From the NCBI GenBank assembly GCA_020029475.1, contig JAIBJG010000006.1, forward strand, positions 1 through 39,653: a stretch of 39,653 bases of DNA, given 5' to 3'. Position numbers and translations under genes: made by a program. Source of the stretch: Methanobacteriota archaeon. Lineage in GTDB: Archaea > Thermoplasmatota > Thermoplasmata > RBG-16-68-12. This document shows, piece by piece, positions 14,750 through 39,653 of this stretch (its first letter is position 1; each line of letters opens with the position of its first letter). The notes under the pieces are model-generated. The model did not search any database and was not told where the DNA came from. It saw only the letters and a program-made list of their open reading frames with translations.

Positions 14750-14830
14750 GGGACGATGATGATGTTTCAGGGGGGGTCGGTGAAAGTGCAAAAGCGCCTA
14801 AAGCCACTACCCCTTGAGGCCCTCAAAGCC

Positions 14831-33433: not shown

Positions 33434-33449
33434 CGGGTCCCGCCACTGC

Positions 33450-33473
33450 GGGCACTTTCGCCCACCTCCCCCC
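33450..33473 (+). promoter_or_regulatory. Shared upstream element, copy 1
   Basis: GGGCACTTTCGCCCACCTCCCCCC; TAAATA begins 31 nt after CACTTTC. Confidence 0.55.
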
Positions 33474-33524
33474 GGCCCCCGCCTAAATAGCCTCCCGCCC
33501 CATGGAGACGCGGGGAGGAGCCCA

Positions 33525-34325
33525 ATCGACTCCGAGGCTCGAACCGAGGTACTTCCGCAGGAGCTCGTCCAGCTCCCCGAGCGGCGGCTCCTCGCGACGT
33601 CGATCCCCGTCCTGGACCGCCTCCTCGGGGGGTTCGAGGGCGGCCGTATCACGCTGATCGACAGCGGGTCCGACTACGTGTTCCACCTCACGTCCCTCCT
33701 GTGCGTGCGGGCCGTGATGGAGGGGGACGAGGTCGTGTTCGTGGACGGCGGGAACTCCGTGGACCCCCACGGGATCGCCGCGATCGCGCGGCGGGTCGGG
33801 CTCGCGCGGCTCGATGTCCTCCCGAAGATCCACGTCGCGCGGGCGTTCACGTGCCACCAGATGGCGACAATATTATTGGAGCAGCTCGATGAAAAGGTGC
33901 GGGAGGTCGGGGCGGGGCTCGTCGTCCTGTCGTGCCTCCCGGAGCTGTACCTGGACGAGGACGTGCCCCTCTCGGAGGCCCACCAGCTCTTCCTGAGGTC
34001 CGCGCGGGCGATCCGGAGGGCCGCGGAGGAGAGCGGGGCCGTCGTCGTCGCGACGAACGCGGGGCTCGCGAAGCTGTACCGCCGGAAGTCGATCCGCCGC
34101 GTCCTGTACGAGACCGTGGACCGCGCGGTCCGGTTCCAGCACCACCGGGGCGGGCTGAGGATCGTCGTGCCGGACCTCGGGGTCGAGGAGCTGTACCGCC
34201 CCGTGCCGCCGGACCAGACGACCCTGGAGGACTTCGAGTACCCGCTCCCGCGGATCCGGGGCCTCCAGGAATCCGTGGACCCGAAGGAGGTCAAGGCGTC
34301 CGGGTACCTGCGCCTCGGGTGGTAG
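33525..34325 (+). CDS. RecA/RadB-fold protein with degenerate Walker motifs (no canonical start in frame)
   Basis: Manual translation in the frame of track ORF 33678: IDSEARTEVLPQELVQLPERRLLATSIPVLDRLLGGFEGGRITLIDSGSDYVFHLTSLLCVRAVMEGDEVVFVDGGNSVDPHGIAAIARRVG...; strongly GC3-coding from ~33525. Confidence 0.75.
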   Translation: MDSEARTEVLPQELVQLPERRLLATSIPVLDRLLGGFEGGRITLIDSGSDYVFHLTSLLCVRAVMEGDEVVFVDGGNSVDPHGIAAIARRVGLARLDVLPKIHVARAFTCHQMATILLEQLDEKVREVGAGLVVLSCLPELYLDEDVPLSEAHQLFLRSARAIRRAAEESGAVVVATNAGLAKLYRRKSIRRVLYETVDRAVRFQHHRGGLRIVVPDLGVEELYRPVPPDQTTLEDFEYPLPRIRGLQESVDPKEVKASGYLRLGW

Positions 34326-34367
34326 CGGGAACCCTTTTATCCGCCGCGGGGCCTCCGTGGCGGGCCC

Positions 34368-35321
34368 ATGCGGTACTTCGTGACGGGGGCGACGGGTTTC
34401 ATCGGCACCCGGCTCGCACGACAGCTCCGCGAGGCGGGGCACGAGGTCGATGCGATCGCGCGGGACCCCGGGAAGGCGGGGGACCTCGCGAGGATCGGCG
34501 TCCGCCTCCACAAGGGGGACATCACGGACAAGGAATCGATGCGAACTCCGATGGCGGGGGCCGACGGCATCTTCCACCTCGCGGCCTGGTACAAGATCGG
34601 GGAGAAGGACAAGTCTCCCGGGGTGCGGAGCAACATCGAGGGCACCCGCAACGTCCTCGGGCTCATGGAGGAACTCGGGATCCCGAAGGGCGTGTACACG
34701 AGCACCCTCGCGGTCTTCGGGGACACGAAGGGGCAGGTCCCCGACGAGTCGTACCGGCACGACGGCCCGTGGCTGAGCGAGTACGACCGCACGAAGTGGG
34801 TCGCCCACTACGAGGTCGCGGAGCCGATGATGAAGAAGGGGCTCCCGCTCGTCGTCGTGCAACCCGGCGTCACGTACGGGCCCGGGGACCCGAGCCAGAT
34901 GGGGATCGCCCTGCGGGAGTACCTGGAACGGAAGCTCCGCGGTGTCCCCAAGGGGTCAGCGTACTGCTGGGGGCACGTCGAGGACACGGCCGCGGGCCAC
35001 GTCCTCGCGATGGAACGCGGGAGGCCCGGGCAGAGTTACATCATCGCGGGCGAGCCGAAGACGTTCATCGACGCGATCGAGATGGCGGAGCGGATCACGG
35101 GGATCCCCGCCCCGCGGATGCGGCCGTCGCCCGGGTTCGTCCGGTTCCTCGCCGCCCTCACCCGCTCCGAGATGCTCCGCGTGAGCGCGGGGGCGACGTA
35201 CCTGGGGAGCAACGTGAAGGCGAAGCGGGACCTCGGCCTCCGCCACCGCCCCCTTGAGGAGGGCCTCCGGGAGACGCTCCTCGCGGAGATGCGGACCCTC
35301 GGGATCCCGGCACCGGGGTAG
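34368..35321 (+). CDS. NAD-dependent epimerase/dehydratase (extended SDR)
   Basis: MRYFVTGATGFIGTRLARQLREAGHEV...IFHLAAWYKIG...VYTSTLAVFGD...YDRTKWVAHYEV...VVVQPGVTYGPGD. Confidence 0.92.
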   Translation: MRYFVTGATGFIGTRLARQLREAGHEVDAIARDPGKAGDLARIGVRLHKGDITDKESMRTPMAGADGIFHLAAWYKIGEKDKSPGVRSNIEGTRNVLGLMEELGIPKGVYTSTLAVFGDTKGQVPDESYRHDGPWLSEYDRTKWVAHYEVAEPMMKKGLPLVVVQPGVTYGPGDPSQMGIALREYLERKLRGVPKGSAYCWGHVEDTAAGHVLAMERGRPGQSYIIAGEPKTFIDAIEMAERITGIPAPRMRPSPGFVRFLAALTRSEMLRVSAGATYLGSNVKAKRDLGLRHRPLEEGLRETLLAEMRTLGIPAPG

Positions 35322-35325
35322 GGCC

Positions 35326-36270
35326 GTGGACCGGATCGAGGTGACGATCGGGGACATCGAGGAGGCCGTGCCCGTCGTCCAGAAGGTCGCCCGCCGGACG
35401 CCGACGATCCTGCTGGAAGGCCCGGACGGCGAGGTGTGGCTGAAGCTCGAGAACCTGCAGCGCCTCGGCGCGTTCAAGATCCGCGGCGCGTGGAACCGGA
35501 TCTCCCGCCTCACCCCGGAGGAACGGAAGCGCGGGGTGACGACCCTGAGCTCGGGAAACCACGGCCGCGCGGTCGCGTGGTCCGCCCGACGCCTCGGCCT
35601 GCGGTGCGTGATCCGCGTCCCGGAGGGGGCGGCCCCGCAGAAGCTCGCCGCGATCCGAGCCGAGGGCGCGGCGGTGATCCCGATCCCCCGTTCGGAGCTG
35701 GTCCGGGTCCACGGGGAGGAGACGTGGCGGGCGTGGCCCGAGACGTACCTCCCGCCATTCGCACATCCGCTGATGATCGCCGGGAACGGGACCGCGGGCC
35801 TGGAGATCGCCGAGGACGCGCCGAACGCAAAGACGGTCCTCGTGCCCGTCGGAGGCGGGGGCCTCGCAGCCGGAATCGCGATCGCGGTGAAGGCCCGCCA
35901 TCCGGGCGCGAAGGTGTTCGGCGTCCAGCCGGACGGGGCCGCGAGCCTTCCCACCGCCCTGAGGACGGGGCGGGGGTTCCACCTCGAACGACCGGAGACG
36001 ATCGCGGACGGCATCGGGGTCGGGCTCATGTTGCCCGCCATAGTCGAACTCCTCCGGCGGAATCTCGACGGCTGCCTCCTTGTCTCGGACGCCGACATCC
36101 GGGCCTCGATGCGGAGGCTCGCGCTCGATGCGAAGGTCGTTGCGGAACCCGCGGGTGCGGCGTCCCTCGCGGCGTGGTCCCGCCATCGGGAGACCTTGGA
36201 ATCCCCCGTCGTGGCGGTCGTCTCCGGAGGGAACGTCGACCCGGCGCTCCTCTCTGCAGTCCTGAAGTAG
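35326..36270 (+). CDS. PLP-dependent threonine/serine dehydratase family protein
   Basis: VWLKLENLQRLGAFKIRGAWNRI...SSGNHGRAVAWSARRLGL...VLVPVGGGGLAAGIAIAVKARHP...AEPAGAASLAA. Confidence 0.9.
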   Translation: MDRIEVTIGDIEEAVPVVQKVARRTPTILLEGPDGEVWLKLENLQRLGAFKIRGAWNRISRLTPEERKRGVTTLSSGNHGRAVAWSARRLGLRCVIRVPEGAAPQKLAAIRAEGAAVIPIPRSELVRVHGEETWRAWPETYLPPFAHPLMIAGNGTAGLEIAEDAPNAKTVLVPVGGGGLAAGIAIAVKARHPGAKVFGVQPDGAASLPTALRTGRGFHLERPETIADGIGVGLMLPAIVELLRRNLDGCLLVSDADIRASMRRLALDAKVVAEPAGAASLAAWSRHRETLESPVVAVVSGGNVDPALLSAVLK

Positions 36271-36323
36271 GAAGCTCCCCGCCCCGCGGAAAGGCCTATG
36301 TGCCGCGGCGGCCTCGCTCCCGC

Positions 36324-37058
36324 GTGGTCCGGATCGGCGGTTCCACGTACAGCAAGCGGCCCTTCGAGCCCCAGGTCCGCGAGCTGAAGGAGGCGGGGTT
36401 CGACTACTGGGAGTTCGACCTCTCGTGGATCGAGCCGACCCCGAAGCTGCAGGCGGAGGCGACCGCCGTCGTGGGGATCCTTCCCGCGGAGACGGCGCAT
36501 CTCCCGCCACCGAGGTTCACGAAGGAGGACCAGGCGCGGTTCCAGAAGTTCCTCGACATCGCCGCCCCTGTCGGGCCGAGGATCTTTAACGTCCACCTGA
36601 TGCCCGCGAAGTCTGCGGCGGGAGTCCTGCTCGATGTCCGCACCGCGTGGCTCGCGGAGCTCGTCGACGCGGCGCACTCACGTGGGCTGACGATCACCCT
36701 GGAGAACGTGGAGGAACCCCTCTCAATTCTCGCTGAGGTCTTCACGCGGATCCCGAGGATGAAGGCATGCCTCGATATCGGGCACGCATCCCTCGACGGG
36801 GACAACGAGCGGCCCTTACAGCTCCTCTCCTTGATCCGCGACCGCCTCGCGCTCGTCCACGCCCACGACAACCGCCAGGGCCACGGTGAGGCGGGGGACC
36901 TGCATCTTCCGCTCGGAAAGGGAACCATCCGGTTGGAGGGGATTCTCCGCGCCTTGAAGGAGAACGGATTCGACGGCCATGTGACCCTCGAGCTGTTCTC
37001 CGGCATGAAGGAGGAGAAAGCGGAGAGCCTGCGCAGGGCCCGTGTGTGGCTCGTGTAG
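36324..37058 (+). CDS. Sugar phosphate isomerase/epimerase (xylose isomerase-like TIM barrel)
   Basis: ELKEAGFDYWEFDLSWIEPTP...LTITLENVEEPL...MKACLDIGHASLDGDN...LALVHAHDNRQGHGEAGDLHLPLGKGTI...VTLELFSG. Confidence 0.88.
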   Translation: MVRIGGSTYSKRPFEPQVRELKEAGFDYWEFDLSWIEPTPKLQAEATAVVGILPAETAHLPPPRFTKEDQARFQKFLDIAAPVGPRIFNVHLMPAKSAAGVLLDVRTAWLAELVDAAHSRGLTITLENVEEPLSILAEVFTRIPRMKACLDIGHASLDGDNERPLQLLSLIRDRLALVHAHDNRQGHGEAGDLHLPLGKGTIRLEGILRALKENGFDGHVTLELFSGMKEEKAESLRRARVWLV

Positions 37059-37137
37059 TAGTTTCGGCCAACCCCGGGGCAAAGTCCCAAGACCCACCGA
37101 AGATTATATCTATATGCATACAAATATGACAATTCCG

Positions 37138-37377
37138 ATGGCGAAGACGATCGCAATCGCCCAAGATGTCTACGAGCTGCTCTCGAACGACAAAGGGGAT
37201 ACTGAGAGCTTTAGCGACGTGATCCGGCGGTGGCGTCGGAACCGAGGAAGCCTCCTGGACTGCTACGGGTTGTGGGGCGACATCCCGGAGAAGGAGTTCA
37301 AGGAGATGGAGAGCGCAATCTATGGGGCCGACCGGCCCGCATCGAAGGAACTGAAGCGCAGGAAGGTCTGGAGATGA
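37138..37377 (+). CDS. VapB-type antitoxin
   Basis: MAKTIAIAQDVYELLSNDKGDTESFSDVIRRWRRNRGSLLDCYGLWGDIPEKEFKEMESAIYG; AT-rich promoter with TTATATCTATATG; ATGA overlap with the PIN gene. Confidence 0.82.
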   Translation: MAKTIAIAQDVYELLSNDKGDTESFSDVIRRWRRNRGSLLDCYGLWGDIPEKEFKEMESAIYGADRPASKELKRRKVWR

Positions 37378-37772
37378 AGCTGCTCGACACGACCCTCTTG
37401 GTGGATTTTCTCCGGCGGCGGGAGGGTGCACGACGCGTCGTCCTGGCCATGGAGGAGAGGGGGGAGCCGGCGGGGACGACCGAGGTCAATGCATTCGAAC
37501 TCCTGCTCGGGGCGTATCCTCGCGGCCGCCTCGACCCGAAACGACTCGCTCCTGTGGAGAAGTTGCTGAATCGACTCGAGGTACTTCCCCTGACCCGCCC
37601 CGCCTCTATGCAAGCCGCGGAAATCCTGTCGAAGTTGCGCGCCGAGGGCCGGGACATTGGACTCTTGGACGCGCTAATCGCGGGAGTCGCGATCGCATCC
37701 GGGTGCGACACGATCGTTACCCGCGACGAGGGTTTCCGACGAATCTCCGGATTGAAAGTGGAGACCTATTGA
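37374..37772 (+). CDS. VapC-type PIN domain toxin
   Basis: MKLLDTTLLVDFLRRRE...TEVNAFELLLGAY...LLDALIAGVAIASGCDTIVTRDEGFRRI; PIN acidic residues present. Confidence 0.92.
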   Translation: MKLLDTTLLVDFLRRREGARRVVLAMEERGEPAGTTEVNAFELLLGAYPRGRLDPKRLAPVEKLLNRLEVLPLTRPASMQAAEILSKLRAEGRDIGLLDALIAGVAIASGCDTIVTRDEGFRRISGLKVETY

Positions 37773-37795
37773 GCACTTTCGGCCATCCCTCCCCC
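37772..37795 (+). promoter_or_regulatory. Shared upstream element, copy 2
   Basis: AGCACTTTCGGCCATCCCTCCCCC right after the vapC stop; TTGATAGG about 29 nt after CACTTTC. Confidence 0.45.
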
Positions 37796-37841
37796 GCTCC
37801 CGTTGATAGGCCGTGGAGCCTCTCTCGGCGGGAGAGCCGCC

Positions 37842-38093
37842 ATGGGCCGCACCGTGCCGACGTACCGCCTCCATACGGAGTCGATCATCAACGAGTGGAT
37901 GGACTACCGCCGCGCCCTCCGGGAGAAGGACCGCGAGGTGTTCGACGAGCTGATGTACAAGGCCCGCCTCCATTCGAGCGCGGGGAGCTACACGGCCCGC
38001 CTCGACCCCGTCGCGACGATGTTCCTGTCGATCCTGCTGGAGATCGAGAAGGAGATTCGAGAGTCGAAGGCGCGGCTCGGCCCCACCGGCTAG
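37842..38093 (+). CDS. DUF8156-like small archaeal protein of unknown function
   Basis: MGRTVPTYRLHTESIINEWMDYRRALREKDREVFDELMYKARLHSSAGSYTARLDPVATMFLSILLEIEKEIRESKARLG; recalled similarity to conserved archaeal MGRTVPxxR... proteins. Confidence 0.7.
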   Translation: MGRTVPTYRLHTESIINEWMDYRRALREKDREVFDELMYKARLHSSAGSYTARLDPVATMFLSILLEIEKEIRESKARLGPTG

Positions 38094-38131
38094 GATTCAC
38101 AATTATCTCTAGGAAGGGCATACGCAATCTG

Positions 38132-38683
38132 ATGCATGGGAGTCCGGATTGGAGGGAACGCACAAGGAAAGTTCTCTACCCCGCGGACCCGGATGATGCC
38201 GACACCCTCACCGAGGGGATTTGGGTTCTCCCCCTGGTGGGCGATGAAAACGAGGGGACGGGAATCATTCTCAACACCTCCGTCTCCGGGGAAACGCGTT
38301 TCCAGACAGGTGATCTCGCGACGTGGATTTCCGCGAACCCGGCCACGCAGAAAGCGGAAATCGTATCCTCCATGCGGACCGACTGGGACTTGGCGGAGCC
38401 GCTTGAGGCCTTCCTCGCCCGGGCGGGAATCGCCCTCGCCCAAGCGTACCACGCCGAAAACGAGTCGCGACGGAAGGAGCGCGTCAAGACGATGGCGATT
38501 CTCCGTTGCGAGCTCTGCGGCGAACCGGGAATCGGTCGTCTCCTTCCAGACGAAGTGTGGCATGCGATTATCCCCGCGGAGCACCAATCCAAGGCGCTTT
38601 GCGATTCCTGCATCAATCGGTTCGAACTGGCGTCGCGGGAACGCGAGACCCCACGGTCGCGATGGGCCTTCTGGAGACGATGA
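38132..38683 (+). CDS. Hypothetical protein with C-terminal CxxC..CxxC
   Basis: MHGSPDWRERTRKVLYPADPDDADTLTEGIWVLPLVGDENEGTGIILNTS...; CELCGEPGIGRLLPDEVWHAIIPAEHQSKALCDSCINRFE. Confidence 0.6.
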   Translation: MHGSPDWRERTRKVLYPADPDDADTLTEGIWVLPLVGDENEGTGIILNTSVSGETRFQTGDLATWISANPATQKAEIVSSMRTDWDLAEPLEAFLARAGIALAQAYHAENESRRKERVKTMAILRCELCGEPGIGRLLPDEVWHAIIPAEHQSKALCDSCINRFELASRERETPRSRWAFWRR

Positions 38684-38706
38684 AGCGCACCCCGTCTGAT
38701 GCCGTG

Positions 38707-38728
38707 GGCACTTTCACCCACCTCCCCC
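38707..38728 (+). promoter_or_regulatory. Shared upstream element, copy 3
   Basis: GGCACTTTCACCCACCTCCCCC; TTAA begins about 30 nt after CACTTTC. Confidence 0.55.
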
Positions 38729-38783
38729 GCCCTCCCCCTTAACCGCCCGCCATGAAATCCTCATTCCAAGGGGGAGTCGTCCC

Positions 38784-39653
38784 ACGCAGGGCTGGCTCAT
38801 CGACGCGTATCCGGACTACGAGAAGGACACGATCGTCCTGTGGCTCTGGAACCAGGACGGGGCCCACCGCATCGAGGACAAGGCCTTCGAGACGTCGTTC
38901 TACATCCGACCCCCGCCAGCGGAGATCCCGGAGGTCCGGAAGCGGCTGGAGATCCTCGACCAGGTGAAGGAGGTCCGCGAGGTCGAGCGGCGGGTGGACA
39001 TCGGGAGCGAGGACACCGTGCCCGTCCTCGAGGTCGTCCCCCGCCACTACCGGGAGCTCCAGGACATCGCGAAGATCGTGGACTCGAACGGCGGGTACCA
39101 CGACTATGCCCTGTACAACGTGGACCTCCGGTTCGGCCAGCGATACTGCATCAAGCACGCGATCTTCCCGTTCGGCCTCCTGTGGACGAACAACGGCCGG
39201 TGGCGGGCGGAGGAGGAGCAGTTCGCCCTCGACTACCCGATCCCGCCGCTGCGGCCCGCCCTGCTCGACCTTCGCGTGGACACGCCCCTCGGAATCCCGC
39301 GGTTCCAGGACAAGCTCCTCAGCGCGCGGGTCGGCGACATCGAGGTGGGCGGGAGCGAGTCCGAGATTCTCGAGAGGCTGAACGCCGCAGTGAAGGACCT
39401 CGACCCGGACGTCGTCCTCACGGACAACGGGGACGCGTTCCTCATGCCGTACCTCGCGAGGAAGGCCGCGGAGCACGCGGTCCCCCTGCAGCTCGGGAGG
39501 GACCCGGACCGGTTCGTGGAGAGGCGGGGAAAATCGTACTTCACGTACGGGAAAATCGTGTACAAGCCCGGGCAGTACCTCCTGAAGGGGCGGCTCCACC
39601 TGGACCGCGGGCACTTCGCGTTCCGGGAGGCCGCGATGGCGGGGCTCGCGGAG
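38784..39653 (+). CDS. Family B DNA polymerase, N-terminal/exonuclease region, exonuclease motifs degenerate (partial, runs off right edge; start unresolved)
   Basis: Manual translation: TQGWLIDAYPDYEKDTIVLWLWNQDGAHRIEDKAFETSFYIRPP...YHDYALYNVDLRFGQRYCIKHAIFPFGLLW...PALLDLRVDTPLGIPRFQDKLLSA...DLDPDVVLTDNGDAFLMPYLARKA. Confidence 0.8.

Follow-up and report, generated by a model that had tools for sequence, protein, structure and literature searches.

The window analysed here is a 39,653-nt stretch of DNA that forms an entire contig (C136) of a 1.94-Mb, approximately 91% complete draft genome of an archaeon of the phylum Thermoplasmatota. It carries the three genes of the PolB2 mutasome, a known archaeal translesion-synthesis complex, each behind a copy of the same promoter box. 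This box has the core A-N-TTTC and recurs upstream of repair genes across the phylum, and it very probably marks a phylum-wide DNA-damage regulon in which the PolB2 mutasome and further repair genes are controlled together, with the divergent second Cdc6/Orc1 protein (Cdc6-2) as the main candidate for its reader. While the protein set is not new, the box as a phylum-wide element of repair genes is well supported by sequence and appears to be new in the literature searched; outside the Sulfolobales, the open-access literature yielded no description of an archaeal regulon for DNA damage whose cis element is defined. Genomes were sampled from the order (37 genomes, 11 of better quality) and from the phylum (395 genomes). 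Families are labelled f1 for the window's own family, f1 to f6 for the same order and f7 to f24 for the same class, with higher numbers for the same phylum.

The box (GCACTTTC; consensus form ACTTTCRSSSAYCYCYCC) is located on the plus strand at 33451..33472 before the gene of the inactive RadA paralogue iRadA (GGCACTTTCGCCCA / GGCACTTTCGCCCACCTCCCCC, TATA-like CCTAAATAG at 33482), at 37772..37793 before that of PPB2 (AGCACTTTCGGCCA / AGCACTTTCGGCCATCCCTCCC, TATA-like TTGATAGG) and at 38707..38728 before that of PolB2 (GGCACTTTCACCCA / GGCACTTTCACCCACCTCCCCC, TATA-like CTTAACC). As the initial annotation had seen, one element thus stands upstream of all three genes; the copies are alike across approximately 22 nt and each is then followed by a TATA-like stretch. 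With a looser pattern four matches were obtained in the window, the three before the trio and a fourth, itself a strict copy, before a TnpB-like gene (minus strand, 14767..14790, match at 14787). Searching the window's own genome with one mismatch to GGCACTTTCNNCCA gave 14 near-matches versus 3 for the reversed pattern; those on contigs C26, C28, C69 and C133 and at a glyoxalase on C92 were weak and were excluded from the regulon. The strict pattern CACTTTCRNSSAYCYCYCC gave 88 matches versus 0 for its reverse in the genomes of the order and 49 versus 1 in those of the phylum. The frequency of the box is far above chance, and only 1 to 8 strict sites are present per genome.

AT content is maximal 29 to 32 nt past the A of ACTTTC, which is the expected TATA position. 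Families f1, f2 and f5 conserve the box upstream of PPB2 and f3 has a degenerate form of it there, whereas the flanks are not conserved; in f4 and f6, where iRadA is the first gene, the box is found upstream of iRadA. An exact-pattern scan of GTDB, for which approximately 31 chance matches are expected from our own arithmetic on the pattern and 264 billion bases, yielded 88 stretches. Among the 80 listed, 49 belong to Thermoplasmatota (assigned from record titles and, in one case, from the match to a phylum genome) and 29 of these have a TATA-like box; only 1 of the 31 listed from outside the phylum has a correctly placed one. Viral carriage of the box was considered and rejected, as IMG/VR gave 3 box matches, none adjoining a repair gene.

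For cross-validation a matrix was trained on 59 non-mutasome sites and used to scan 20 mutasome operons from f8, f11, f15, f19, f21 and f24, each over 260 nt around its start. Since some training sites come from f8 and f11, the fully independent families are f15, f19, f21 and f24. A sense-strand match with p ≤ 0.02 in shuffles and a TATA-like stretch 26 to 30 nt downstream was present in 17 of the 20 operons; one further operon (p 0.042, no TATA-like stretch) was not counted and two failed. A common cis element of the trio genes was recovered in nearly all families examined, and its extension far beyond the trio is a point that was not visible in the initial annotation.

The trio itself shows the published hallmarks of the PolB2 mutasome (PMC11791011, PMC4104785) and was identified as such on these grounds; PolB2, PPB2 (arCOG07300) and iRadA have been described under this name (Makarova 2014, PMC4104785; Timinskas 2025, PMC11791011), and models of the heteropentameric complex have been published (PMC11791011). 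The archaeal mutasome-like set proposed from the window alone is real but had already been reported. The system found here shares with the published one the three proteins, the residues that mark them and the way they are associated; in f1, however, there are three separate promoters with one common box instead of one operon. The iRadA gene (33525..34325, plus strand; open reading frame (ORF) 33486-34322) encodes a Rad51/RadA fold (Pfam Rad51, E 1e-8) in which the P-loop segment aligned to human RAD51 reads D-S-G-S-D-Y and lacks GK[ST], i.e. the ATPase residues are lost, as had been noted for a RecA/RadB-fold protein without Walker A motif. PPB2 (37842..38093, plus strand; arCOG07300-like) comprises 83 aa with the N-terminal arm MGRT (MGRTVPTYR in the window), and 25 columns are invariant among ten sequences spanning all six families f1 to f6. 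Its earlier designation as DUF8156-like was dropped because the protein has no Pfam match; a single weak match to DUF922 occurred among ten relatives.

The PolB2 gene (38784..39653, plus strand) is cut by the contig end after approximately 290 N-terminal aa. The suspected loss of the exonuclease acidic residues was borne out in both the window sequence and the alignment: Exo I reads LLDLRVD where D-x-E is expected and Exo II reads TDNGDAFLMPYL where NxxxFD is expected. The D(K/R) motif before the palm is F-Q-D-K-L-L in the window and DK or DR in most relatives, with D-P or D-S in f4 and f6. As the window's PolB2 ends before motif C, this motif was read from relatives. All full-length relatives have the first Asp of D-x-D replaced (G-I-V-D-S or G-I-I-D-S), while motif A is kept as LYPS or LYPN. 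PolB2 is distinct from the replicative polymerase, as shown by the I-V-D of its relatives in motif C and by a separate, ordinary PolB on contig C25 in which Exo I ('DIE'), motif A and motif B are all intact; motif C of this second protein was not matched by a simple pattern. The genes also co-occur: each of PPB2 and PolB2 was found in 30 of the order's 37 genomes, including all 11 of the better ones, and at class level PPB2 was found in 84 of 150 genomes sampled. The refuting checks set out in the initial annotation came out in favour of its mutasome-like set.

For every box site the gene next downstream was translated, and representatives were named by Pfam. An identified gene starts within 260 nt of 99 of the 121 distinct box sites, and approximately three quarters of these genes belong to DNA repair, recombination or replication. 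The mutasome and XseA are the most frequent targets (PPB2 15, XseA 15, iRadA 8, PolB2 8), followed by MCM (7), RadA (4), Hjc (3), an XPD-like helicase (3), NreA (2), Top6B (2) and a DNA methylase (2). Single sites precede genes for an SSB-like OB protein, DprA, an SplB-like radical-SAM protein, a Hef-type helicase, Mre11, Lhr and a 189-aa protein without Pfam match that reads to us as nuclease-like; likewise, we assigned Hef, Mre11 and SplB by our own reading, the Pfam matches being only to helicase, metallophosphatase and radical SAM, respectively. The remaining targets are TnpB-like (5), Sel1-repeat (4) and LAGLIDADG (3) genes and unknown families. Within the order the box precedes iRadA, PPB2, PolB2, XseA, MCM, RadA, XPD, NreA, Top6B, DprA and Lhr, and in Methanomassiliicoccales additionally Hjc, Mre11 and the Hef-type helicase. 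In other classes of the phylum it was found upstream of PPB2 (G053), RadA (G111) and a Hel308-like helicase (G073), as named by us.

Several less familiar genes also stand behind the box. TnpB-like nucleases of at least three kinds occur there in two orders (the minus-strand site of the window and L071, L098, L166, L175, L233, L257 and L264), as do LAGLIDADG endonucleases (L094, L103, L109), and mobile elements may be using a damage promoter. A family of approximately 150 aa without Pfam match (MAYDDLKxFxG...GGEHSW...), found in two classes (L078, L087, L117, L361), is a candidate new damage-response protein. Further examples are an unnamed small-protein family with FIVTWDVDSAD (L059, L096, L116), a 102-aa protein reminiscent to us of Cas2 (L092), an unnamed 80-aa protein (L005, L091) and a zinc-ribbon ORF of 47 to 58 aa between the box and MCM (L065, L067, L070, L084, L099, L120).

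The core of the box is the same as that of the UV-response element of Sulfolobus, to which it probably corresponds. UV-inducible promoters of Sulfolobus require an A(N)TTTC that is not palindromic (upsE and upsA have ACTTTC) and lies upstream of the transcription factor B recognition element (BRE) and TATA box (PMC5817253). Orc1-2 binds this element (PMC9738581), and the Dpo2 genes of the mutasome are strongly induced by damage (PMC10470591). Thermoplasmatota cores are ACTTTC, AGTTTC (f15) or ATTTTC (f11, f21), so that the second position is free as in Sulfolobus. The sense orientation upstream of BRE/TATA, the absence of a palindrome and the control of PolB2 genes, which for the box is predicted, are likewise common to the box and the damage-response element (DDRE) of Sulfolobales with its factors Orc1-2 and TFB3; the targets differ in that ups and ced genes were not seen among the box genes. 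Among the 95 non-redundant sites, 16 have an extra ANTTTC upstream, offset by -6 (6), -10 (5), -18 to -20 (4) or -33 (1), compared with 0 to 7 sites for ten other hexamer patterns used as control, and in Methanomassiliicoccales the unit ACTTTCGGTC can recur at a 10-bp period. A palindromic operator was considered and rejected: only 6 of the 95 sites contain the opposite-strand unit GAAANT, a count close to that of the control hexamers, and the box was hence taken to lack dyad symmetry.

The most likely, although weakly supported, reader of the box is the second, divergent Cdc6/Orc1, which almost every genome with the box encodes. Of the 20 genomes tested from across the phylum, 18 have two Cdc6 proteins, one canonical and one divergent, as do nearly all genomes of the order. 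Together with the occurrence of arORC2 genes near PolB2 in many euryarchaea (Makarova et al., PMC4104785), this makes Cdc6-2 the leading candidate regulator. In the proposed mechanism the box would be the operator of a DNA-damage regulon, an archaeal counterpart of the SOS box. It would tie the three mutasome transcription units together, and through it the mutasome, RadA, NreA, Hjc, Mre11, ExoVII, helicases and MCM would be raised together, with Cdc6-2 as the candidate reader.

Several points weigh against this proposal, of which inducibility and the regulator are predictions. Neither cdc6 gene carries the box, the best matrix score in approximately 35 upstream windows being 8.7 bits, unlike orc1-2 in Sulfolobus; self-regulation of the cdc6 genes through the box was consequently rejected. 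The box lies approximately 14 nt further from TATA than the DDRE and has an extended C-rich half with no described counterpart there. MCM and Top6B, which are not classical damage-induced genes, as well as TnpB, LAGLIDADG and Sel1-repeat genes are among the targets, and one f15 and two f24 mutasome loci gave no box in the matrix scan.

The differing TATA distance, the C-rich part and the cdc6 genes without box favour a true damage regulon with an unrelated reader, in which the ANTTTC likeness to Sulfolobus would be coincidental; by our estimate a five-base pattern fits an 18-nt motif by chance in 1 to 2% of cases. However, the free second position, the orientation, the tandem ANTTTC units and the mutasome target are all as in Sulfolobus, and a divergent Cdc6 accompanies the box. 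The chances of this alternative fall only a little short of even. A replication or growth-phase regulon, comparable to MluI-box/E2F and containing repair genes because they act at the fork, is unlikely. It could account for MCM, RadA, Top6B and the SSB-like protein among the targets, and Cdc6 paralogues are replication proteins. Against it, the commonest targets are mutasome genes and XseA, with Hjc, Mre11, NreA, DprA and XPD also included, the mutasome genes of Sulfolobus are damage-induced (PMC10470591), and the cdc6 genes lack the box. A general BRE-like core-promoter element of GC-rich genomes without regulatory meaning, for which the C-rich stretch near BRE/TATA might speak, is highly improbable given the few strict sites per genome, their concentration on repair genes and scores of at most 8.7 bits upstream of cdc6 versus 11 to 25 bits for most mutasome promoters.

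A damage regulon under the ANTTTC box may be compared with the bacterial SOS system, in which LexA controls ImuA-ImuB-DnaE2. In both, one operator precedes an error-prone polymerase module, a RecA-type recombinase and nucleases. The LexA palindrome, ImuB and DnaE2 are not part of the archaeal set, which has archaeal promoters instead; ImuB was not found among the neighbours scanned, and the polymerase of the window belongs to the B family and not to the C family of DnaE2. The analogy to ImuA-ImuB-DnaE2 drawn initially holds for function and is limited to it. An ancestral response, with an ANTTTC box and a Cdc6/Orc1 reader controlling mutasome and recombination genes before the split of Thermoplasmatota and Sulfolobales, and with a restraint by start codons added in f1, is a tentative and rather doubtful extension; if true, archaea would have possessed a regulon akin to SOS early in their history. 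A phylum-conserved box with clear targets provides a candidate list of repair genes without assigned function. It is moreover open to direct experiment in cultivated gut and rumen methanogens, which would reveal whether a damage response under an origin-recognition paralogue predates the Sulfolobales.

The proposed start-codon restraint concerns PolB2 and iRadA of f1, which appear to differ from the published mutasome in having near-cognate start codons. Behind a conserved GGGG-AG, PolB2 seems to start with ACG in 10, CTG in 2, ATC in 1 and ATG in 1 of 14 f1 genomes, one of the ACG genomes having an additional in-frame ATG six codons upstream, whereas this position is ATG in all f3 to f6. In the window the probable start is the ACG at 38784 behind GGGGGAG. 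For iRadA of the window and of two congeners, no in-frame ATG, GTG or TTG was found before the conserved N-terminus; the probable start in the window is the ATC at 33525, properly spaced behind GGGGAGGAG, and relatives have ATG or ATC at the equivalent place. The apparent near-cognate starts of PolB2 and, in several genomes, of iRadA lie behind a strong Shine-Dalgarno sequence, and such initiation may keep a mutagenic enzyme scarce.

The PolB2 genes of some relatives additionally differ from the published mutasome by probable inteins or a +1 shift. The shift was found in two relatives (L110 at approximately 3677 and L114 at approximately 8580; G028, G030) at the same motif-B place, TTTC|GGT; the half of PolB2 after it is open and conserved, which could indicate either recoding or the scar of a lost intein. 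In-frame intein-like inserts are located at exactly this position in L089, L102 and L112 and also in G002, G018, G023 and G034. With respect to the neighbouring genes of the window, a VapB-VapC-like toxin-antitoxin pair (37141-37374 and 37374-37772) lies directly upstream of the PPB2 box, and between PPB2 and PolB2 a 183-aa protein with a CxxC...CxxC pair and without Pfam or NCBIfam match is encoded at 38132-38683.

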